Source: Dehalococcoides mccartyi CG5 (GTDB taxonomy: Bacteria > Chloroflexota > Dehalococcoidia > Dehalococcoidales > Dehalococcoidaceae). Taken from it: a DNA stretch of 64,000 bases. Below the pieces are notes generated by a model. That model searched no databases and was not told where the DNA came from. It worked only from the letters and a program-made list of their open reading frames with translations. The DNA lies in assembly GCF_000830885.1 (NCBI RefSeq), contig NZ_CP006951.1, positions 806,001-870,000 of the forward strand. Reading direction: 5' to 3'. Positions 573-64,000 of the stretch are shown here, piece after piece. Position numbers and translations under genes: made by a program. Position 1 is the first letter of the stretch, and each line of letters opens with the position of its first letter.

Positions 573-1038
573 GCCAGGTCAAGAGATAGGCTAAACCTGC
601 AAAAAGAGGCCCGAACAATGCAAAGGCGGTAGCCCATGCGACTGCTCGGCGATTATGTCCCAAAGCATGAAAGTACATTCCCCACGCAATGCTTAAGGTC
701 AGTCCGGTAATACTACTTAATAGCAGCACTATATCCCACTGTGGCTCATTCAGATTACTGTCTGACGGGAAAAAGCCTGAAAAAACCAGCATACCAATAA
801 GCATTGAGGCAATAAAAATAAGCACGCCTACGAAAAGACGTGGACGTTTATCAAGATAATTGAGAACTGCATAGAACATTTGAAGTACCAAGATTGCAGT
901 TAGTGTGATAGCCAGTATTACCATTATTGTTTGGGCCATTTTACTTGGGTCTTCAGATTGACTGAATAGTACTAGGCCGATGGAAATAGCACCAAGTGCC
1001 AACATGCTTATAACTAATATCAAATTCATTTTATTCAT
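556..1038 (-). CDS. Small multi-spanning membrane protein, unknown function
   Basis: A 160-residue protein with about five hydrophobic segments (near residues 5-25, 35-55, 65-90, 100-120 and 130-150) joined by short polar loops. It has no catalytic or metal-binding motif that I can see. I chose the ATG at 1038 because GGGAGG lies six bases upstream; a longer open frame reaching 1176 adds a polar stretch without a binding site. It is an integral membrane protein of unknown role. Its neighbours are a hypothetical protein and a decayed iron-sulfur membrane protein, which give no functional clue. Confidence 0.7.
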   Translation of the reverse strand: MNKMNLILVISMLALGAISIGLVLFSQSEDPSKMAQTIMVILAITLTAILVLQMFYAVLNYLDKRPRLFVGVLIFIASMLIGMLVFSGFFPSDSNLNEPQWDIVLLLSSITGLTLSIAWGMYFHALGHNRRAVAWATAFALFGPLFAGLAYLLTWPKQTD

Positions 1039-1096
1039 AAGCATCCTCCCTAGGGGAAAATTATCACATAAATTATTAGATTTCAAGAGGTGAATA

Positions 1097-1751
1097 TGGC
1101 TAATCCCGAATACGGCAATTTGGTACCCTTTTCTGGGGCAGGATATTTTGCGGCTGGGTATACCCAACGGGGACACAGCAGAGTTTTATCTACCCCAAAA
1201 AATGGGCATAAAGGTAAATGAGAAGCTAAATCATTAGCTGGGTTTTATAAAATATATATTTTTTTGTCCTGATAGCCGCAGTGCTGGCAACCGGCACAAC
1301 CGCTTTTGCCCGGATAGATTCTTTTAAGGCCCTGCTAAACATTGACTTCACATGGTTAACCGGCATCAGTTTGGGCATAGTCCTGACTGGGTCTATCTAT
1401 ATATCCGGCTTCTGGTGCCGCTATTTTTGCCCTCTAGCGCATTTTTAGGGCTGGTGAGTAAAATATCGTATCCCAAACTAAGATTTGGCACATTCTGAAA
1501 CACTGCGGCATCTGCCATTAAACATACGGTGATTACGGAGTAATAAACTGCAGCGGCAAAGTGCTTAAACTGGATAATTCCGAATGTGTACACTGGGGAG
1601 AATGTTTAAAACACTGCCCGAAAATGCAGTTGAGATTGACCATATCCAGATTTCAGATATTCCTGTCAGTTCCAAACCACAGGTGGTCATTTCCAGAGGA
1701 GAATTCAGGCCAGATCTTTCAAAAAGCCCTTCATCCGGCTCTGAGCCATAG
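1097..1751 (+). pseudogene. Remnant of a NapH/NosR/RdhC-like 4Fe-4S membrane protein
   Basis: Pieces in shifting frames add up to one decayed gene. From about 1263 to 1430 a frame encodes two membrane segments and then WCRYFCP, the cysteine motif at the end of a membrane helix in NapH/NosR/RdhC-type proteins. A frame change at about 1430 gives SSAFLGLVSKISYPKLRF before a stop. At about 1561-1617 another frame carries the ferredoxin motif CVHWGECLKHCP, and a further shift continues as PENAVEID and on to a stop at 1751. An upstream piece (1097-1237) may be part of the same gene, but I cannot tell which part. The 3' end overlaps the end of the oppositely oriented HPP-family gene. Several frameshifts and stops rule out a full-length product. 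The family call is well supported for the two cysteine motifs; an RdhC origin specifically is inference. Confidence 0.75.
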
Positions 1752-2214
1752 ACAGTACCAGAGCACTGGTAACCACCGCAATAAACACCCCGGGACTAAA
1801 TCCGGTTATGGCCACACCCAGAGCTGTACCTGCAGCCGGAGCATGTTTCAGATTCATAACCACCATCAGGAAAATGCAGAGACCCACTGCCAAAGCATAA
1901 ATAAGGGCATCCGTCAGCATATGGTGGTGAGGTATCAAATTCACCAGACAGCCTATGCCAAAGCCCAGTAGATGCCCCCAGAAAATGCGTCGCGGCACTG
2001 CAGGAGGGGAACTGGGCTGAGTAAAAACGATAAAGGCTGTAGATGCAATGGAAGCAATAACTACTGCATTTTCAATACTAAGGGTCAGAGCTATTATAAA
2101 AAGGACAAGTGTGGCCAGAAAGCTTTGGAAAATATATAATTTCCAATGAATTTTAAGCTCACGCATCTGCTTAAGCAAATAACGGTAGGCTTTACCAAGG
2201 TAACTAAACTGCAT
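1705..2214 (-). CDS. HPP family membrane protein
   Basis: A 169-residue protein with four to five membrane segments after a basic amino-terminal stretch. The segment HAPAAGTALGVAI (about residues 127-139) matches the signature of the HPP family (His-Pro-Pro variant with Ala here), integral membrane proteins of which some members transport nitrite. Start at 2214 is the most upstream ATG; an internal Met at 2166 is possible, because neither has a strong ribosome binding site. The carboxyl end overlaps the tail of the decayed iron-sulfur protein on the opposite strand. The family is fairly sure; the substrate is not known. Confidence 0.65.
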   Translation of the reverse strand: MQFSYLGKAYRYLLKQMRELKIHWKLYIFQSFLATLVLFIIALTLSIENAVVIASIASTAFIVFTQPSSPPAVPRRIFWGHLLGFGIGCLVNLIPHHHMLTDALIYALAVGLCIFLMVVMNLKHAPAAGTALGVAITGFSPGVFIAVVTSALVLSMAQSRMKGFLKDLA

Positions 2215-2254
2215 TTAAATTTTCCCATTACTCCCGGCCACCCCCAGCCTTTTT

Positions 2255-2491
2255 CTAGCCGAAATACATGTCTTTTGCTGAAACTACAAACTCATTGTTA
2301 CAAATGGGACAGTAAAATGCAGCCTTCTCTACTGATTTTTTAGTGGTATCATTTTTCTCCACCCGTGAAACCTGCGCTTCAAACCCGTCTTTAGGGCACT
2401 TGGCACAGATATAGCGCTTGAGACCAGACTTTGTCTCGTTGAAGACTTTGGCATCAGCCAACAGTTCACAAATAAGATCGATATCAGACAT
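2255..2491 (-). CDS. Small zinc-ribbon protein
   Basis: Encodes 78 residues with two CxxC pairs, CAKC near residue 29 and CPIC near residue 61, spaced as in a treble-clef or zinc-ribbon fold. A good ribosome binding site (GGAGG, five bases before ATG) supports the start. The first 25 residues are acidic and helical. It is likely a zinc-binding cytoplasmic protein; the partner, whether nucleic acid or protein, cannot be told. It lies just upstream of the HPP-family gene in the same direction and could share its transcript. Confidence 0.6.
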   Translation of the reverse strand: MSDIDLICELLADAKVFNETKSGLKRYICAKCPKDGFEAQVSRVEKNDTTKKSVEKAAFYCPICNNEFVVSAKDMYFG

Positions 2492-2683
2492 GTAATCCTC
2501 CGGATATTATTATTTTCCATTATACCCTAAAATCATTTTTTTAAAATCCCCGTTTTAAATTATACAGAACAGAACACAGCCAATAACATCTTCTTTTTGC
2601 CTGTTTTTAGCCTTAAAATGCCTTTAAATTAACGTTAGCTTAACGGTCAAAGCAAATGAATATTTGTGGTTTCCCCGAATAAA

Positions 2684-2712
2684 AAACCGGCTCCTTTTGG
2701 GGAGCCGGGTAG
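2684..2712 (-). terminator. Rho-independent terminator hairpin
   Basis: CCGGCTCC and GGGGAGCCGG form a strong GC-rich stem with a short loop. The minus-strand product then enters a T-rich tract, so it ends the transcript of the small coiled-coil gene at 2741-2992. Confidence 0.7.
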
Positions 2713-2740
2713 CTTTCTATTTCAGCTTTGGTTAACCTTG

Positions 2741-2992
2741 TTATTTCTGGGGTTTGGTTTCATGGGTGGCAAGCTCTGTAGTAATGTCTTCCACCATCTT
2801 GTTAAAGACGTTGCGAATCTTCTTCATAACAGCTTCAGCTGCTTCTTCTCCAGCCCTGCGCGCTTCTTCAGCTGCCTGTCTGGCATCTGCGGCGGCCTGT
2901 TCTGCCCGAGTAATACTGCCGTCAATTTCGTCCAGTATTTGGGGCAGGGGCTTGCTTAAGATCTCGTGACTGCCTTTTGTTTGTTGGTTCAC
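2741..2992 (-). CDS. Small alanine/glutamate-rich coiled-coil protein
   Basis: An 83-residue protein starting with GTG behind a strong ribosome binding site (AGGAGG). Residues 25-60 are an almost pure Ala/Glu/Arg helix (many EEA and AEQAA units) that should form a coiled coil; the ends are polar. There is no membrane segment. The composition resembles the much longer coiled-coil protein at 34492-35817, so the two may belong to one class of structural or scaffold proteins, but identity is low and the role unknown. A terminator follows directly, so this is probably a single-gene transcript. Confidence 0.65.
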   Translation of the reverse strand: MNQQTKGSHEILSKPLPQILDEIDGSITRAEQAAADARQAAEEARRAGEEAAEAVMKKIRNVFNKMVEDITTELATHETKPQK

Positions 2993-3129
2993 TGCTTTCC
3001 TCCTCCTCTAGCACATCCTGAGAGTATTATACAATTTATAAATATTTATTATTTAACCTACTCATAGCTGAGGCCAAAATAATTTTTTTTATGTAAATTA
3101 GCTTTCGGATATTATCATCCGCAAAATGA

Positions 3130-3157
3130 ATATCCCGCCGGATGAAGGGCGGGATAT
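3130..3157 (-). terminator. Terminator hairpin after the ACT-domain gene
   Basis: A ten-base-pair perfect stem (ATATCCCGCC with GGCGGGATAT, eight-base loop) lies about 40 bases beyond the stop of the ACT-domain gene and is followed on the minus strand by a T-containing tract. Confidence 0.6.
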
Positions 3158-3193
3158 ATATGTGCTAATGCAATGTATATTTACGTATCAGCT

Positions 3194-3583
3194 TCAGGTT
3201 AAAATAATCTCTGCCTTTTCAGGGTTGCTTACCTTTAGTACAATCCTTGCTGTACCCGGAGTTGAATCCAAAAAGGCGTAAAAATAATCTATATTTATAT
3301 CGGCCTTGCTCAGCGGTTCAACTACGGTTTTCAGCAGTCCGCTGGGGATATCCGGAATTTCAGCGGTAACCATCATATCAGTACGGCTGGTAAATCCGGC
3401 GGTTTTCAAGGCTTCAGCCCCGGCATCAGGGGCATCCAAAATCATACGTACAATCCCAAACTCATCTGTTTCGCTGACTGATAATGCCCGAATATTTATC
3501 TTTGATTTATCCATAGCTTTGAGTATTGCATATAACCGCCCGGGTTTATTTTCCACGAAAACGGATACTTGTTTTATCATCAT
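3194..3583 (-). CDS. Tandem ACT-domain amino-acid-binding protein
   Basis: A 129-residue protein made of two ACT domains (about residues 1-68 and 71-129). The first contains the typical ENKPGRLYAILKAM strand-turn-helix in which ACT domains bind small ligands such as amino acids. There is no catalytic domain, so it is a stand-alone regulatory or ligand-binding protein. It lies 20 bases behind paaK in the same direction and is surely cotranscribed. A stand-alone ACT protein next to a phenylacetate-CoA ligase recurs in anaerobes, which suggests sensing of an aromatic amino acid or its keto acid. The ligand is inference. Confidence 0.8.
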   Translation of the reverse strand: MMIKQVSVFVENKPGRLYAILKAMDKSKINIRALSVSETDEFGIVRMILDAPDAGAEALKTAGFTSRTDMMVTAEIPDIPSGLLKTVVEPLSKADINIDYFYAFLDSTPGTARIVLKVSNPEKAEIILT

Positions 3584-3603
3584 TTTCCTCTTCCTCCTGG
3601 TTA

Positions 3604-4923
3604 CTACCTGTTTTCAGGTAATTCGGAACGGTCAATAATCCTTTTTGCCTTGCCTTCAGTTCTGGCCAGAGTACGCGGTTCAACCAGCTTGATTTTGGCA
3701 CGTATACCCAATACGCTATCCAGTTCGGCCTGAAGCTTCTTCTGAAGGGCATTCAACCGTGACATTTCATCCGAGAAAATGCCTTCAGAAACCTCTACCC
3801 ATATTTCCAGTTCGTCAGAGGCAAAAGCATTGTGCCTGTCTACTATTATCTGGTAATGGGGTTCAATACCTTCTACGGTGAGAAGTACGCTTTCAATCTG
3901 CGAGGGGAACACTGAAACACCTCTAACCCGTATCATGTCATCACTGCGGCCGGTAATTTGGGACATACGTACCATGGTTCTCCCGCAGCCGCATTTTTCA
4001 GGCATCAGGCTGGTAATGTCTTTGGTCCGGAAACGGAGTACCGGCTGAGCCTGTTTGTTTATGGTGGTAATTACCAGTTCTCCTTTTTGGCCGTAAGGAA
4101 GCACTTCGCCTGTTTCAGGGTTTATTATTTCCACCATGAAATTATCTTCCCAGATGTGCAACCCGCATTTCTGGGGACATTCCATAGCTACACCCGGCCC
4201 GGTTATTTCAGTCAGGCCATATATATTGAGGGCAGTGATACCCAGTTTGGCTTCTATCTCCCGGCGCATATTTTCACTCCATGGTTCAGCGCCCATAATG
4301 CCCAGCTTGAGTGAAGAATTATGAAAATCAAGCCCCATTTCCTTGCCGGCTTCATACATTATCAGAGAGTAAGAAGGAGTACAGGTAATCACGGTAGTCC
4401 CCAAATCCTGCAGCAACATCAGCTGGCGTTTAGTATTGCCGGTAGAGGCTGGCACTACCGCCACCCCCATTTTCTCCGCCCCGTAATGAATCCCCAGCCC
4501 GCCGGTAAAAAGCCCGTATCCGTAGGCATTCTGGAGAATATCTTCGGGCACTACCCCGGCACAGCTTAGAGAACGGGCTACCAGTTCCGCCCATGTATCC
4601 ACATCTTTGGCAGTATAGGGGGCAATTACAGGTTTACCGGTAGTACCGGAGGAAGACTGAATACGTGATATTTCTGTTTTAGGCACACAGCATAACCCGA
4701 AAGGGTAATTCTGGCGGAAATCTTCTTTACTGGTGAAAGGAAGCAGGACGAGGTCTTTCAACGTTTTTATATCTGCGGGTTTGATCCCTAGTTTATCCAT
4801 GCTTTGATGGTAAAATGGATTTCTATTATAGACATAGGACACTGTTTCCTGAAGTCTTTTCAGCTGTAACTCTTCAAGCTGCGGTCTGGGAAGGGTTTCA
4901 TATTCGGGGTTACGTATAACCAC
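3604..4923 (-). CDS. paaK: Phenylacetate-CoA ligase family protein
   Basis: A 439-residue ANL-superfamily enzyme that activates an aryl acid (phenylacetate or a relative) with ATP and couples it to coenzyme A. The ATP-binding loop SSSGTTGKP (about residues 90-98), YGLTEITGPG (about 236-245) and the carboxyl-terminal lysine region EGKAKR are all intact, in contrast to the ligase homologue at 19534-21051. Start is GTG with TAGGAGGAG just upstream. The ACT-domain gene follows in the same operon. In anaerobes such pairs often sit with indolepyruvate:ferredoxin oxidoreductase and serve aromatic amino acid metabolism; no such oxidoreductase is in this window. The family is sure; the natural substrate is not. 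Confidence 0.88.
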   Translation of the reverse strand: MVIRNPEYETLPRPQLEELQLKRLQETVSYVYNRNPFYHQSMDKLGIKPADIKTLKDLVLLPFTSKEDFRQNYPFGLCCVPKTEISRIQSSSGTTGKPVIAPYTAKDVDTWAELVARSLSCAGVVPEDILQNAYGYGLFTGGLGIHYGAEKMGVAVVPASTGNTKRQLMLLQDLGTTVITCTPSYSLIMYEAGKEMGLDFHNSSLKLGIMGAEPWSENMRREIEAKLGITALNIYGLTEITGPGVAMECPQKCGLHIWEDNFMVEIINPETGEVLPYGQKGELVITTINKQAQPVLRFRTKDITSLMPEKCGCGRTMVRMSQITGRSDDMIRVRGVSVFPSQIESVLLTVEGIEPHYQIIVDRHNAFASDELEIWVEVSEGIFSDEMSRLNALQKKLQAELDSVLGIRAKIKLVEPRTLARTEGKAKRIIDRSELPENR

Positions 4924-5150
4924 TTGCTCCTCCTAATATAACGGCAACTACTTCAGGGTAACCGGTAGTACCCAAATAAGTATTATTTTTACCAAATTAA
5001 CAGGCAATATTGTACCCCTTTTTTATGAAATGCGGAAATATTTTATAAAATAACCCTGCAATTTTATTGGAATATTATTTGACTAAGCTTCAAATCCGAG
5101 AAACAACAGTAGGTTTAAACTAAACAAAAATACACAGGCAAACTCAGATA

Positions 5151-8100
5151 TCAATTTGCCCGTGAGAGTATGCTATTTAACGTGTTTTTCAAGGTTGCAA
5201 TATTGAAAGGCTTGTTAATACAGGGAATACCTTTGGCAACCATAAGGTTGCTAATAGATGCATCAGATGTATCACCTGTTATAAAAATCACCCGTTTAGC
5301 CATTTGAGGCCATTCGGCGGTTATCTCAGAATAAAGCTCAAGACCACTTACTCCGGGCATGCGTATATCCAGCAGGATAACATCATAATTATTATTTGAA
5401 ATCATATCCATAGCTTTTTGAGGGACATCACACTCATCCACGCGATAGCCATCCTGCGTAAGCACAATCCGTATCAAGGCCCTGATTGCGGCCTCATCAT
5501 CAATCACCAGTACTGATGCTTTTTTAGTCAGACCCTGCACCACCCCGGTCATATCGTTTGCTGCGGGTACTTTGTCAGAGGGTTTTATGGGCAACTCAAT
5601 TGTAAATTCAGCCCCCTCACCGAGTATACTCTCTCCCCGAATTGTACCTTCATGCTCAAGTATAATGCCGTGAGACAGGCTCAGACCCAAACCGGTACCT
5701 TCACCGGGATCTTTGGTAGTGAAAAAAGGCTGGAACAGTTTACCCAATGTTTCAGCCGACATGCCCAGTCCATTGTCCCGAAAAGACATCCTCACCCATT
5801 CCCCTTCTTTTTTAACGCTGATAGTCAGGATACCTTTTTCATGGGCTTTTTTCATGGAATACTCGGCATTTAATATCAAGTTCAAAATCACCTGCTGTAT
5901 TTGGCCGGAGTCAACTGTCAATAACGGTAAATCAGGTTCGTAATGCCTGACTACTTCTATATTTGCAGTTTTAAGTACATAACTGCGTAAATCCAAAGTA
6001 TTATCAATAAGTTCGGTGATATTTACACTGCTTCTCACGGGCTTAGCCTGGCGGGCAAATGTAAGCATACGTTTTACAATTTCCACTACTCTTAGACTGC
6101 CGGAATTAATTATCTGAAGTTCCTCCATCACATCTGCCGGTAAATCCTCCCTCTCTATAAGTATGGAGGCAAAACCAATCACCCCCGTCAGCGGGTTGTT
6201 TATCTCATGGGCAATGCCGGCCGCCATTTCACCTACGGCCGCCAAACGGCTGGACATTTCTGACTGGTAACGCAGTTTCTTCTGCTCTTCCTCCAGTTTT
6301 TTGCGTTCACTTATATCTCTGGCAAGTGTAATAACGGTACGCTTGCCACCAAACTTAAACATACGTGAGTGCAATTCCACCGGAATGGTTTTGCCGGATT
6401 TTGTTTCCATGGCGAACTCAGATACTACTTCAGTATTTTTCTCTATATACCTAATGTTGTCAGCAAATGCACTAACTGGATATTTCCCTTTGGACATAAG
6501 ATCCATGGGGGTTATTTGCAAGAGCTCTTTTCGGCTATATCCCAGCATTGCTAAAGCGGCGTCATTCACTTCGATAAATTTGCCGGCTGAATAATCTGCC
6601 GCCGGCTGATGCACTAAAATAGCATCTGTAACACTATTAAAAAGCACCTGATAATTTTGAAGGCTTTCGTTCAAGGCATTTTCAGCCTGTTTCCGCTCAG
6701 TGGTGTCACGGATAATGTTTATCAGGGTTGTTGTCCCTTCAATATCCGCCCCCCGCGAACTGACCTCCACAGGGAAAACACGCCCGTCTTTACTTTGATG
6801 GAAAGTTTCAAAAAGCATACCACGGATATGGGCCTGATTCAGTTGCCTTGCGGTAAGCACCCTTGCCTGAGGGGCGCGCAGGTTCTGTATTTTCATGGAT
6901 AACAACTGCTCACGGCTATATCCATAAGCTTTTACAGCCGCACTATTGGCTTCCAATAGTTGTCCGGTTTCCTTGTTCATAAACAGTATAATATCCCGGC
7001 TGTCTTCAGCAATCAGTTTATATTTTTGAAGGGCATCTTCAGCTGCTTTACGGGTCGTAATATCTACAATCATGGCTAGATAATAGAGCAAATTACCCGT
7101 TACATCTCTGATACCGGCTACCGACAGATGTGCCCAAAATATGCTGCCGCTCTTTTGAAGATATCTTTTATCCGTTTCATAACGGCTGATTTCCCCGTTT
7201 TTCAGACGATTCAAATGGATAATGTCTTTCGCAAAATCATCTGAGTTGGTGATATCACTGACTTTCAGGCTGGTAAATTCCGAGGCAGAGTATCCCAGCA
7301 TTTGGCAAAATTTTTCATTTACCTGCCAGTATTTAAGATCTAAACCATATATGGCAGCACCTATGGGTGACTGGTCAAAGGTTGAGCGGAATCTGGCTTC
7401 GCTCTCACGGAGTAATTCTTCGGCCTGTTTTCTTTTGGTAATATCCTGGATAGTGCCAAACACCACATTCCGTTTGGAATCAAACTCCGCTATAGAGTGT
7501 ATATATAATATAGCCCCGTCAGTGGGGCGTTTGATTTTAAACTCAATATCATACGGAATATTCTGTTTAATCAGGTTATTCAGTGCTTTATCCATAGCAG
7601 GCCGGTCTTCGGGAACAGGCACCTTCTGGACAAAAGGAATAGTTAATATTTCCGCTTTTAAACCATATATCTCTCTAGCACCATCAGAAGGGTGTACTAA
7701 TCCGTTTGCCAGATCAAATTCCCAGTAACCAAACCCGGCTACCTTTTCGGCTTTTACTAATCTTCTATGGCTTTGCTCCAGTTCGCGGGCGATTTTTTTA
7801 CGGATGGTAATATCATGAGCTAAAGTGAGTACGGCAGGCCGGCCCTGTAAATCAAATATATGAAATGTCATTTCTACTGAAATATTATGCCCGTCTTTAT
7901 GCGGGAGATTGCACTCACGAGTGACCATCTTTTGCGCATAAAGTTCATCTGTTATCTCTTTTAATACAAGACCTGAAGAAGGATGAAAAAACAGATTTCG
8001 GGCAGATACTTTCAGCAGTTCTTCATGGGTATACCCCAGCATATCACAGGCCACTGCGTTCAGTTCAACAAATTCATCCGCCCATTCACGCTTATTGATA

Positions 8101-10276: not shown

Positions 10277-12084
<1,808 letters not shown>

Positions 12085-59576: not shown

Positions 59577-60908
59577 TTATAGAACGGGCAGATATCTCTT
59601 AAGTTCCCAGTCAGTAACAGCTATGCTGTACTGGCTCCATTCTATTTTCTTGTTAGCCACAAATGCATCAAAAACATGGTCACCCAGAGCTTCACGCACC
59701 AGTGAACTGCCTTCAGTCAGCTTCAGGGCTTCCAGCAAACTGCCGGGCAAAGTCCCGATACCGCGCTTGGCACGTTCAACTTCGTTCATTTCGTAAACAT
59801 TCTCTTCTATAGGAGCAGGAGGTGTCAGTTTTTCCTCGATACCCTTGAGACCGGCGGCCAGCATAACGCTGAAAGCCAAGTAGGGGTTACAGCCCGGATC
59901 AGCAGAGCGAAGCTCAATACGGGTGGACTTTTCATGTCCCGGTTTGTACTCAGGAACTCTTACCAGGTCAGCCCGGTTACGGCGAGCCCAAGAAAGATAT
60001 ACAGGGGCTTCAAAACCGGGTACAAGACGCTTGTATGAGTTTATCCACTGATTGGTAACTGAAGTAAATTCGGGAGCATATTTGAGTATGCCTGCAATAT
60101 ATTGCTTGGCCATGGTGGACAGGTAATATGAATCTTTGGCATCAAAGAAAGCGTTCCTGTCACCCTTGAAAAGGCTCTGATGGGTATGCATGCCGGAACC
60201 ATTTACGGAACCGACGGGCTTGGGCATAAAGCTAGCATGCAGACCATGCCGCATGGCCACTTCTTTAACCAGCAAGCGATAGGTCATAACATTGTCCGCC
60301 ATGGTCAGAGCATCAGTATAGCGGATATCTATTTCATGTTGGCTGGGAGCAACTTCATGGTGAGCATATTCAACGATGATGCCCATATCTTGCAAAGCCA
60401 CAATGGTTTCACGCCGAAGGTCAGTAGCCAAATCACGGGGAGTCAGGTCAAAGTAGCCGCCTTCATCCAGAAATTCGGTTGAATGGTCATTTTTGAAATA
60501 AAAATACTCCAGTTCAGGACCAATATAGAAGGTAAAACCCATCTCAGCCGCTTTTTTAAGATTGCGCTTAAGGACATAGCGGGGGTCACCCTCAAACTGT
60601 TCGCCTGACGGCTTCTTGATATCGCAAAACATGCGCCCAACCTGATAATCACCATTGGACCAAGGTATAATCTTGAAGGTATCCGGATCGGGCAAGGCTA
60701 CCATATCGGATTCGTCTATGCGGGCATAACCTTCGATAGATGAACCATCAAAACCCATACCGTCTTCCAACGCTCTTTCAAGCTCGTTATAAGCAATGGA
60801 AAAACTTTTCAGTGAACCCAAAATGTCAGTAAACCATAGGCGAATAAACCGAACATTATGATCTTTGGCCGTTTTAAGAACGTACTCTACGGATTCTGCT
60901 CTCGTCAT
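59577..60908 (-). CDS. glnA: Glutamine synthetase type I (alpha)
   Basis: A 443-residue enzyme forming glutamine from glutamate, ammonia and ATP. Motifs: WFTDILGSLKSF near the start, DGSSIEGYARIDESD, GPELEYFYFK, HHEVAPSQHEID, GSGMHTHQSLF and RIELRSADPGCNPYLAF. The size and lack of the GSI-beta insertion and of the adenylylation Tyr loop put it in the alpha class, normally controlled by feedback rather than adenylylation. AAGGAG is present upstream of ATG. A four-half-site GlnR-type operator lies at 60981-61018. Confidence 0.96.
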   Translation of the reverse strand: MTRAESVEYVLKTAKDHNVRFIRLWFTDILGSLKSFSIAYNELERALEDGMGFDGSSIEGYARIDESDMVALPDPDTFKIIPWSNGDYQVGRMFCDIKKPSGEQFEGDPRYVLKRNLKKAAEMGFTFYIGPELEYFYFKNDHSTEFLDEGGYFDLTPRDLATDLRRETIVALQDMGIIVEYAHHEVAPSQHEIDIRYTDALTMADNVMTYRLLVKEVAMRHGLHASFMPKPVGSVNGSGMHTHQSLFKGDRNAFFDAKDSYYLSTMAKQYIAGILKYAPEFTSVTNQWINSYKRLVPGFEAPVYLSWARRNRADLVRVPEYKPGHEKSTRIELRSADPGCNPYLAFSVMLAAGLKGIEEKLTPPAPIEENVYEMNEVERAKRGIGTLPGSLLEALKLTEGSSLVREALGDHVFDAFVANKKIEWSQYSIAVTDWELKRYLPVL

Positions 60909-60980
60909 TTCTAACGTTTCTCCTTTTTATTGCTGGGGAAATATCTTTCCCTATTTTAGTTAACAGTTTACCATTTATTT

Positions 60981-61018
60981 GTTTCGCTTTTATTTCGCAA
61001 TTGTTTCCGATATGTTAC
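60981..61018 (-). promoter_or_regulatory. GlnR-type operator before glnA, four half-sites
   Basis: Read toward glnA on the minus strand: GTAAC (61014-61018), six bases, GAAAC (61003-61007), six bases, GAAAT (60992-60996), six bases, GAAAC (60981-60985). This equals the actinobacterial GlnR box GTnAC-N6-GaAAC in two tandem copies with one weak half-site. It ends 22 bases before a probable -10 TAAAAT (60953-60958), the position of an activator site. Confidence 0.7.
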
Positions 61019-61034
61019 GGCAACCGCCATAGCC

Positions 61035-61373
61035 CTAAACTGCATCGTTTCCTGTTTCACCGGTACGAATCCGTATAACTTGTTCAACCGGCAGGATGAA
61101 TATCTTGCCATCACCTATACGCCCGGTCCGGGCAGCTTTGATAATGGCATCAACTGCAATCTGGCAGTCATCGTCGTGGCAAATAACCTCCAATTTGAGT
61201 TTGGGTAAAAATTCAACCCTATATTCACCCACTCTCCATTGTAAAGGAACACCCTTTTGTTTTCCGCGTCCGCTAACCTCTGAGACAGTCAGCCCTGCAA
61301 AACCCACCAGTTCCAATGCTTTTCTTACAGGTTCTAATCTTTCTTCACGGATAATAGCTTCTATCTTTTTCAT
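61035..61373 (-). CDS. glnB: PII nitrogen regulatory protein
   Basis: A 112-residue PII protein that reports 2-oxoglutarate and ATP/ADP to targets such as Amt. The T-loop has Tyr51 in GEYRVEFLPK, the site modified in some bacteria; the B-loop TGRIGDGKIFILP and the C-loop VIRIRTGETG are intact. Its ATG overlaps the amt stop by four bases (ATGA). This coupling to amt marks it as the GlnK-like partner of the transporter. Confidence 0.96.
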   Translation of the reverse strand: MKKIEAIIREERLEPVRKALELVGFAGLTVSEVSGRGKQKGVPLQWRVGEYRVEFLPKLKLEVICHDDDCQIAVDAIIKAARTGRIGDGKIFILPVEQVIRIRTGETGNDAV

Positions 61374-62596
61374 CTGACACTCCCCCCGTAAGCCCGTTCA
61401 GCGTGTTGGGCAATATCAAGACCTATGAGTTCTTCGGGTTCTTTCACCCTCAGTCCGACCAGCTTATCTACAACTTTGGCTATTATGAAGCTGCCTCCAA
61501 AGGCAAACCCTGCAGTAACAGCCACACCCAGGGCTTGCTTAAGGAATAATTCCACATTTCCGGAAAGAAGTCCGTCTGCACCGGCAGAGTTGACCGCCAG
61601 ACTGGCGAAGATACCTGTTGCCAAAGCACCCCAGATACCGCCTACACCGTGTACCGCCATAACATCCAGTGAATCGTCAAATCCGCGTTTCATCTTGAAT
61701 ATCATAGCAGCGTAGCAAACCAGAGCCGCCACTGCACCGATGGCAATAGCCGCCATAGGTGTTACAAAACCAGCCGCAGGAGTAATAGCTACCAGTCCGG
61801 CAACCGCACCGGTAACTGCACCCAGCAAGGACGGCCGGCGATGCCGCCAACTAAGGAATATCCAGCAAAGAGCTGCACTGGCAGCCGCAGTGTTGGTAGT
61901 AACGAAAGCGTTTGAAGCTAAACCACCGGCGGTCAAGGCACTGCCGCCGTTGAAACCGAACCAACCAAACCAGAGTAAAGCCGCACCCAGCATAACCATG
62001 GGCAGGTTGTTGGGCTCCATCTGTTCTTTAAGGAAACCGCGTCGGGCACCAAGTGCCAAAACCAGAGCCATAGCAGAAACACCGGCATTGATATGCACAA
62101 CCGTACCACCGGCAAAGTCCAGAACACCCAGATTAAAAAGCCAACCACCATCGCCCCAAACCCAGTGGGCAATAGGTGAATATATAAGGCAAAGCCAGAG
62201 TGCTCCAAACATGAGCAAAGCGCTAAAACGGATTCTCTCTACTACTGCACCGGTAATAAGTGCCAGAGAGATAATAGCAAACATACCCTGGAACATCATG
62301 AAGGCCAGATGAGGTACTGTGGTGGCATAAGTATCAGACGGATCCTGCCCCACACCACTTAAGCCAAAGAAGTTCAGACCGCCTACCAACCCGTTGATGT
62401 CGTTGCCGAAACCAAGGCTGTAACCGATCAAGACCCAGAGTACACCACCCAGAGCCATTGCCCCAAAGCTCATCATAAGAGTGGAAACCAGATTTTTGCG
62501 CCGAACCATGCCTCCATAAAACAGAGCCACGCCCGGGGTCATTAGCATGACCAAAGCGGTGGAGACAAGTAACCAAGTCGTATCGCCGCTGTCCAT
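61370..62596 (-). CDS. amt: Ammonium transporter
   Basis: A 408-residue Amt/MEP/Rh-family channel with 11 membrane segments. Motifs include ALMLMTPGVALFYGGMVRRKN-type start (split by variation), FAGGTVVHINAGVSAMALVL with a pore His, and DVMAVHGVGGIWGALATGIFA with the second pore His. No cleavable signal peptide is obvious. ATG has AGGAGGG upstream. A GlnR-type box lies at 62690-62705. glnB is translationally coupled behind it. Confidence 0.96.
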   Translation of the reverse strand: MDSGDTTWLLVSTALVMLMTPGVALFYGGMVRRKNLVSTLMMSFGAMALGGVLWVLIGYSLGFGNDINGLVGGLNFFGLSGVGQDPSDTYATTVPHLAFMMFQGMFAIISLALITGAVVERIRFSALLMFGALWLCLIYSPIAHWVWGDGGWLFNLGVLDFAGGTVVHINAGVSAMALVLALGARRGFLKEQMEPNNLPMVMLGAALLWFGWFGFNGGSALTAGGLASNAFVTTNTAAASAALCWIFLSWRHRRPSLLGAVTGAVAGLVAITPAAGFVTPMAAIAIGAVAALVCYAAMIFKMKRGFDDSLDVMAVHGVGGIWGALATGIFASLAVNSAGADGLLSGNVELFLKQALGVAVTAGFAFGGSFIIAKVVDKLVGLRVKEPEELIGLDIAQHAERAYGGSVR

Positions 62597-62689
62597 AACT
62601 AAACCCTCCTTCTGTATCTTTATATATACAGTTTAGCTATGGCAGGTTAAAAACAGATTAAGCCTGTATTGCAATCAAATTAATTTTAA

Positions 62690-62705
62690 GTTTCGGGGAT
62701 GTTAC
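62690..62705 (-). promoter_or_regulatory. GlnR-type operator before amt
   Basis: On the minus strand GTAAC (62701-62705), six bases, then GAAAC (62690-62694). It matches the same consensus as the glnA operator, 94-109 bases before the amt start. Confidence 0.65.
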
Positions 62706-62734
62706 AGCGGAAAGAAAACCGGAATTGAAAAACG

Positions 62735-63406
62735 CTAAAAACGGCGTTTAAAGCGGTAGCCAATGTTACGTACCGTCTCAACAAATGTATGAGTTGAATC
62801 CTCTATTTTGCCACGCAAACGGGTAATGTGGACATCTACAGTGCGGTCACCGCCGTAATAGTCATATCCCCACACCTTGTTAAGCAAAGCCTCGCGTGAA
62901 AAAACCCGTCCCCTGTTTTGGGCTAAAAATTTTAAAAGCTCAAATTCACGGAATGTCAGCTCAAGCAATTGCCCTGCCAGAGTAACCTCGCAACCAAGGG
63001 TATCTATTATAAGGTCACCGGCCTTAATAATACCCGGCTCACCCATGCCCCATTTTTCAGCCAAACGCGCCAAGCGGACTTTGAGTTCATTTACCGAACC
63101 GGGCCAGCGGATAAAATCATCCAGCCCCGGTTTAAGGGCTATATCTTCATAATCATCAGCCGGTAATAAACCCATAACCAGAGGGTTTTTGTCCAACTGA
63201 ATATCTTCCGGTATTTCCCATTCGGATTGTTCCGCTTTAAGACTAAGAAAGTCCAGCAGAATAATGTCAGGAGCAAATTCGAACAAAGAGGGATAGGCTA
63301 AAACACAAGAGACCGCCTGTTTTATCTCAAACCGGTCAGCCTCCAGTTCCTTCAGCAAATTACCATTTTTTTTAGCATCAGCAGTGACAATAAACAGTTT
63401 TAACAA
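62735..63406 (-). CDS. Orphan OmpR-family regulator with degenerate receiver, GlnR-like
   Basis: A 223-residue regulator. The amino-terminal receiver fold has an Asp at the phosphorylation position (Asp52, ILLDFLS), but the acidic pair at the start is altered (VTADAKK), and the switch Lys is gone (FIRWPGS in place of xTKPF). The carboxyl winged-helix domain (about 128-222) is complete with LTFREFELLKFLAQNRGRVFSREALL-type sequence (with natural breaks) and DVHITRLRGKIED. No kinase gene is near. Actinobacterial GlnR has the same design. The gene lies between a glutamate synthase gene and amt, and GlnR-type boxes precede amt and glnA. I infer it is a nitrogen regulator. Confidence 0.8.
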   Translation of the reverse strand: MLKLFIVTADAKKNGNLLKELEADRFEIKQAVSCVLAYPSLFEFAPDIILLDFLSLKAEQSEWEIPEDIQLDKNPLVMGLLPADDYEDIALKPGLDDFIRWPGSVNELKVRLARLAEKWGMGEPGIIKAGDLIIDTLGCEVTLAGQLLELTFREFELLKFLAQNRGRVFSREALLNKVWGYDYYGGDRTVDVHITRLRGKIEDSTHTFVETVRNIGYRFKRRF

Positions 63407-63427: not shown

Positions 63428-64000
63428 CTAATAAGCGTACAGCCTGCCATAAGGCCTGAGATACTTAGGATAGAGCTTGTAGAAAGGCCTAGCAGCTATC
63501 TCCTCTGCATTATAACCAAAGTGCAGGGCAAATTCATCAATTAAGGGGCGCAATACTTGCCAGTCCGATTCATCCAACTCGGCCTTAGCCACTTCTTTGC
63601 CCAGCTGGTGGTCTTCTACCTTGCCGCTCATATATATTACACCGCCATGCATGCCTGTGCCTATAAAATTGGCCTTGTGGGTTTCATTTTCTTCAAGACC
63701 CAAACCCAGCACAACCAGCACGCCTCCGGCCATGTACTCACCCAAAAAGTCCTGAGCGGTACTGCCTATAACCAGTGAGGGTTTTTTATCCTGATAGGCT
63801 TTCATATGTATACCGGCCCGGTAACCCACATAATCACGCACAAAGAGTTTGCCGCCGCGGGCAGACATGCCAAATATATCCCCTCCATGCCCGTGCACCA
63901 CTATACGTCCGTTATTTAGAGTATTGCCGCAGCAATCCTGTACATTTCCGTTAACAGTTATGCTTGGGCCATCCATAAAAGCCCCCAGGTCATTACCGGG
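63428..64000 (-). CDS. Glutamate synthase GXGXG domain protein (5' end outside window)
   Basis: The carboxyl 190 residues of a gene that continues beyond the window; the frame is open to the edge, so the Met at 63976 need not be the start. The Gly-rich beta-helix repeats (VHGHGGDIFGMSARGGKLFVRDYVGYR split by variation, GVLVVLGLG, GTGMHGGVIYMSG) identify the GXGXG domain found in the large glutamate synthase subunit or as a separate archaeal-type subunit. It ends 21 bases before the GlnR-like regulator gene in the same direction, so both may be cotranscribed. Confidence 0.85.
   Translation of the reverse strand, partial: PGNDLGAFMDGPSITVNGNVQDCCGNTLNNGRIVVHGHGGDIFGMSARGGKLFVRDYVGYRAGIHMKAYQDKKPSLVIGSTAQDFLGEYMAGGVLVVLGLGLEENETHKANFIGTGMHGGVIYMSGKVEDHQLGKEVAKAELDESDWQVLRPLIDEFALHFGYNAEEIAARPFYKLYPKYLRPYGRLYAY

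Follow-up and report, generated by a model that had tools for sequence, protein, structure and literature searches.

How glnA, the glutamine synthetase gene, is controlled in Dehalococcoides mccartyi CG5 is a question raised by its leader, which resembles the operators bound by GlnR in actinobacteria. In the window, that is, the whole stretch of 64,000 nucleotides analysed here, the minus strand from 61018 to 60981 reads GTAAC-N6-GAAAC-N6-GAAAT-N6-GAAAC, and this array sits between the P-II gene and glnA. The sequence, strand, spacing and coordinates reported in the sequence-only reading were all found to be correct on re-reading, with four half-sites placed 11 bp apart. The GlnR consensus of S. 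coelicolor is gTnAc-n6-GaAAc-n6-GtnAC-n6-GAAAc (PMC10704036). Against this a-b-a-b arrangement the glnA array has two mismatches among the 18 specified bases, and both are confined to half-site 3 (GAAAT), in line with the earlier claim that three of the four half-sites match fully. Apart from that half-site, the GTnAC-n6-GaAAC alternation with its 11-bp period is present at both glnA and amtB.

Such sites are rare. The glnA array is the only one in the window within three mismatches of the GlnR consensus (shuffle mean 0.02), and a pattern fitted to it has a single match in the 1.36-Mb genome, namely the array itself; chance, judged unlikely beforehand, is hence far exceeded. The genome (1,362,151 bp) contains three exact copies of the pair GTAAC-N6-GAAAC: at glnA, upstream of amtB, and at position 599774 within a coding ORF.

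The position of the array relative to the promoter has to be revised, however. It had been placed just before a -35 region, but no consensus -35 lies downstream of it. A scan of the glnA and amtB leaders found neither a sigma-70 hexamer pair nor a consensus -35, on which a conventional sigma-70 -35 was rejected for both genes, and since the last half-site ends 10 bp before the -10, it is the array that occupies the -35 position, with half-sites 3 and 4 in its place. A second array, absent from the sequence-only reading, precedes amtB (62705-62646), and all six of its half-sites keep one register in the leader (62705-62630). The gap between the last half-site and TAAACT, which fits the -10 form TANANT, is exactly 10 bp in both leaders. 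When the pattern KNAAY (four times, 11-bp period)-N10-TANANT is searched without mismatch, the only genome matches are those at glnA and amtB, compared with 0.0015 expected from composition. An RNA leader element was rejected for lack of any Rfam match across 60800-62800. The glnA leader also carries an inverted repeat, GGGAAA-GATA-TTTCCC (60935-60953), which is largely kept in three species and has no Rfam match.

Table 1. Features of the nitrogen locus in the window, with the second regulator of a relative (genome G001) in the last line.
Feature	Position	Strand	Remarks
glnA, type I glutamine synthetase	59577..60908	-	Pfam and NCBIfam GlnA above cut-off
Predicted -10 of glnA promoter, TAAACT	60965..60970	-	10 bp past last half-site; no consensus -35
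glnA operator (predicted)	60981..61018	-	four half-sites, 11-bp period; kept in three Dehalococcoides species
glnA half-sites	GTAAC 61018-61014; GAAAC 61007-61003; GAAAT 60996-60992; GAAAC 60985-60981	-	
glnK/glnB, P-II nitrogen regulator	61035..61373	-	overlaps amtB end
amtB, ammonium transporter	61370..62596	-	
Predicted -10 of amtB promoter, TAAACT	62630..62635	-	10 bp past last half-site
amtB operator (predicted), six half-sites GTAAC-GAAAC-TTAAT-GCAAT-TTAAT-TTAAC	62646..62705	-	11-bp period; kept in three species
GlnR-like OmpR-family regulator, atypical receiver	62735..63406	-	candidate binder
GXGXG-domain gene, last of split glutamate-synthase operon	63428..64000	-	directly upstream of regulator; extends beyond window
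Second GlnR-like regulator, beside modABC-nif	G001:1053001-1068000, local 10641-11360	-	GTAAT x3 before own start

The candidate binder is encoded at 62735-63406 by an orphan gene, with no adjoining histidine-kinase gene and with amtB and glutamate-synthase genes as neighbours. The split glutamate-synthase operon (G000:868500-882500 of this genome, local 929-7539, minus strand) consists of ferredoxin, GATase_2, FMN-domain, GXGXG and FAD oxidoreductase genes, among which hisH and hisF are interleaved. Before this operon GTAAT-N6-GAAAT-N6-GAAAT is kept in three species, while an N10-spaced -10 is not, and the GTAAT-type array is followed by a TTGACA-N17-TAATTT promoter.

The 62735-63406 product belongs to the OmpR family, although Pfam recognises its DNA-binding half only. 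Its best PDB matches are the GlnR structures 8hig, 8hml and 8hih from Saccharopolyspora and M. tuberculosis. Searched against six actinobacterial genomes, it had the GlnR locus as its top match in all six, and Streptomyces GlnR in turn retrieved it first from the present genome (9.7e-33, with the next protein at 4.5e-26), meaning that the two are mutual best matches among the sampled genomes. In a tree of 100 sequences, drawn from Actinomycetota and Dehalococcoidia only and repeated with thinning, the Dehalococcoidia regulators and GlnR were split from all other sampled OmpR regulators, with SH-aLRT support of 100 for the full length and 87 for the DNA-binding domain. The motif TVRN is common to the regulator and GlnR, with G there in all 37 paralogues. 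As in GlnR, the receiver retains the Asp and lacks the other usual phosphorylation residues, that is, the acidic pair, Thr and Lys; at the five receiver sites the regulator has A, D, D, L and W, compared with D, D/E, D, T and K in the paralogues. The Arg beside the receiver Asp, part of the D50/R52/T9 network of GlnR, is absent, with D52 and T8 kept; this network is a detail of the Amycolatopsis receiver and does not define the operator. In a modest AlphaFold model (pLDDT 73), beta strands and alpha helices alternate in the N-terminal domain; the model also has a winged helix, which superposes on GlnR DNA-binding domains to within 1.5 A. From these comparisons, the Dehalococcoidia regulators and GlnR likely have a common ancestor not shared by the other sampled OmpR regulators, a conclusion that is not formally closed because an alternative tree, joining these regulators with their own paralogues and leaving GlnR outside, was not formally rejected by the AU test (p = 0.086).

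Conservation of the half-sites in relatives had been suggested as a check on the operator, and they passed it: in three Dehalococcoides species, 19/20 half-site bases of the glnA array are identical versus 8/18 spacer bases (Fisher p = 7.5e-4). Upstream of the array 11/35 bases are identical, and the amtB array is conserved to a similar degree. Across the order (61 genomes), the composite pattern of array, N10 and -10, shortened to three units, gave 28 exact matches versus one for the reversed control. These correspond to 27 promoters (17 amtB/amt, six glutamine synthetase, one P-II, two nif, namely nifB and nifH, and one at a contig end), 26 of which stand before amtB, glnA, PII or nif genes. 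Matches were present in 20/32 genomes with the regulator versus 1/29 without it (Fisher p = 5e-7, a guide only, as the genomes are related), and an exact match was absent from 12 of those 32. In the class beyond the order, nearly all matches again lie ahead of amtB or P-II. In a simple scan for the best box within 350 bp upstream, many distant glnA genes scored weakly; in several genomes glnA is close behind glnK or amtB, and may share their promoter. In one genome (G035:C96 ~2792), what looks like a remnant of amtB is joined in frame to a P-II gene behind an array, which suggests that amtB was deleted and its promoter retained.

At E <= 1e-38 the regulator was found in 30/251 genomes, all of them in Dehalococcoidia, and a search of viral contigs retrieved no relative. 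Composite matches in other Chloroflexota classes were treated as due to chance, since they precede unrelated genes and no close regulator occurs there at this threshold. With even actinobacterial GlnR reaching no better than about 1e-32, a divergent GlnR in these classes could escape the cut-off, and one may exist there. Taken together, the recurrence of the array at nitrogen genes in the order and class and the kinship of the regulator with GlnR support the earlier GlnR-type reading of the operator.

Other explanations need to be weighed against it. That the array is a chance or compositional set of A-rich repeats in the leader, serving no regulator, would fit half-sites that are A-rich and just 5 bp each; yet the shuffle and reversed-pattern controls rule this out, the half-sites are kept over the spacers and the nitrogen-gene specificity speaks against it as well, making it exceedingly improbable. 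It is also very unlikely, though less so, that the regulator binds the arrays but descends from an OmpR paralogue of the Chloroflexota, with convergence on GlnR-like targets and an independent loss of the phosphorylation site. The AU result quoted above is compatible with such a history, as is the identity of the DNA-binding domain to one Dehalococcoidia paralogue (58%), as high as that to GlnR (57%), but they are opposed by the mutual best matches of the regulator and GlnR, by the fully supported split with every paralogue on the other side, and by the TVRN and GG signature common to the two proteins.

The main rival binder is the PhoB/PhoP-like OmpR regulator (G000:127054-127731), because a gene next to its locus has a TTAAC-type array of matching geometry in front of it; were this regulator to bind the nitrogen arrays, glnA and amtB would lie in, or share, the phosphate regulon. 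That array, with equal 11-bp period and N10-to--10 geometry, stands before methylglyoxal synthase and a PstS-like gene, and in Streptomyces amtB is cross-regulated by PhoP and GlnR (PMC10704036). The PhoB-like paralogue probably uses TTAAC-type arrays of matching geometry, so that cross-binding is possible. We nevertheless hold it to be very unlikely as the binder at glnA and amtB, since the first base of most half-sites is G at nitrogen genes and T in the phosphate-type array, array matches track the GlnR-like gene across genomes, and the matches in relatives lie at nitrogen genes, not phosphate genes. At glnA itself, all half-sites start with G in a nitrogen context, unlike a Pho box with its TTAAC/T-type repeats before phosphate genes. 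The proposed discriminator between the GlnR-like and PhoB-like regulators is the G with which most half-sites begin. Two methylglyoxal-synthase genes of this genome lie behind T-type (TTAAY) 11-bp arrays, 10 bp ahead of the -10 (G000:1309436-1309489 and 129586-129639), the former being kept in G001 (L359 ~14346). One paper (PMC4340931) reports higher levels of the mgs gene DET1576 when nitrogen is limiting, and of DET0137 when solvents cause stress.

We therefore favour a GlnR-type operator, and the 62735-63406 protein very probably binds the glnA and amtB-glnK arrays, activating the -35-less promoters under nitrogen limitation. Binding, activation and the nitrogen signal are what we infer; the arrays, their spacing and conservation, the gene context and the kinship of the regulator are read directly from the DNA. 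Dimers of the orphan GlnR-group regulator would sit head-to-tail on the 11-bp repeats, on four half-sites at glnA and six at amtB-glnK, with the promoter-proximal ones at the -35 place and the -10 a further 10 bp away. Without a usable -35, both promoters would need the bound regulator for recruiting RNA polymerase, and are most likely GlnR-type, activator-dependent and on under nitrogen limitation. Ammonium uptake, PII and glutamine synthetase would then increase when nitrogen is limiting. The neighbouring P-II protein may be what carries the nitrogen signal to the regulator.

In nif-bearing relatives, the regulator may also drive nifH, nifB and molybdate uptake. One such genome, G001 (1,469,720 bp), contains the cluster GlnR-like regulator 2 - modABC - nifH - two P-II - nifDKEN, with nifB further on, and arrays at N10 before a -10 lie ahead of regulator 2, modA, nifH and nifB; that of nifH has six units and a -10 of TAAAGT. 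This nif block fits DET1151-1158 (PMC13390414), and the genome is probably that of D. mccartyi strain 195. In another relative, G003, nifH of a nifH-PII-PII-nifDKE cluster is also preceded by an array. A review (PMC3462421) reports a response to nitrogen status in strain 195, naming no regulator, for the genes of nif, the ammonium transporter, P-II and methylglyoxal synthase. Whether the GlnR-type regulon is an ancient trait common to Actinomycetota and Dehalococcoidia, with a second, nif-linked GlnR paralogue controlling molybdate uptake and nitrogenase via 11-bp arrays in diazotrophic Dehalococcoides, is in our judgement evenly balanced. If true, this would be the transcriptional regulator of nitrogen fixation that has been missing for organohalide-respiring bacteria.

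A search of the open literature turned up no GlnR for either Dehalococcoides or Chloroflexota, in agreement with the earlier remark that Dehalococcoides had no known regulon of this kind, and reviews treat GlnR of this type as an actinomycete regulator. The regulator, operator and targets across Dehalococcoidia would extend it to another phylum; as far as sequence can tell, a regulon of known type in a phylum new to it is well supported. A candidate regulator can also be named for how bacteria used in chlorinated-solvent clean-up, where ammonium supply is a practical concern, respond to nitrogen and, in some strains, fix it. The fixed N10 spacing offers a simple rule for regulon prediction, and the G-type and T-type half-sites a testable code setting the nitrogen regulator apart from the phosphate regulator.

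Among known systems, the closest is actinobacterial GlnR (Streptomyces, Mycobacterium, Amycolatopsis, Saccharopolyspora), likewise an OmpR-family orphan with an atypical receiver, acting on GTnAC-n6-GaAAC direct repeats of 11-bp period, with glnA and amtB-glnK as targets and two boxes at glnA. The amtB gene of S. coelicolor has six GlnR sites (PMC5826061), as at amtB here. The Dehalococcoides system differs in its phylum, in the regulator gene standing beside amtB-glnK-glnA and behind the glutamate-synthase operon, in the lack of a long C-terminal tail on the regulator, in half-sites degenerate to KNAAY in a continuous register, and in the nif targets of relatives. GlnR of Bacillus and Paenibacillus, a MerR-family protein with an inverted-repeat operator, has the name and the nitrogen role in common, but is an unrelated protein. 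PhoB/PhoP boxes are direct repeats of 11 bp that take the place of the -35, with the -10 following after about 10 bp, a geometry shared with the arrays described here; they differ in their T-type half-sites (TTAAC), their phosphate genes and the canonical phosphorylated receiver of their regulators.
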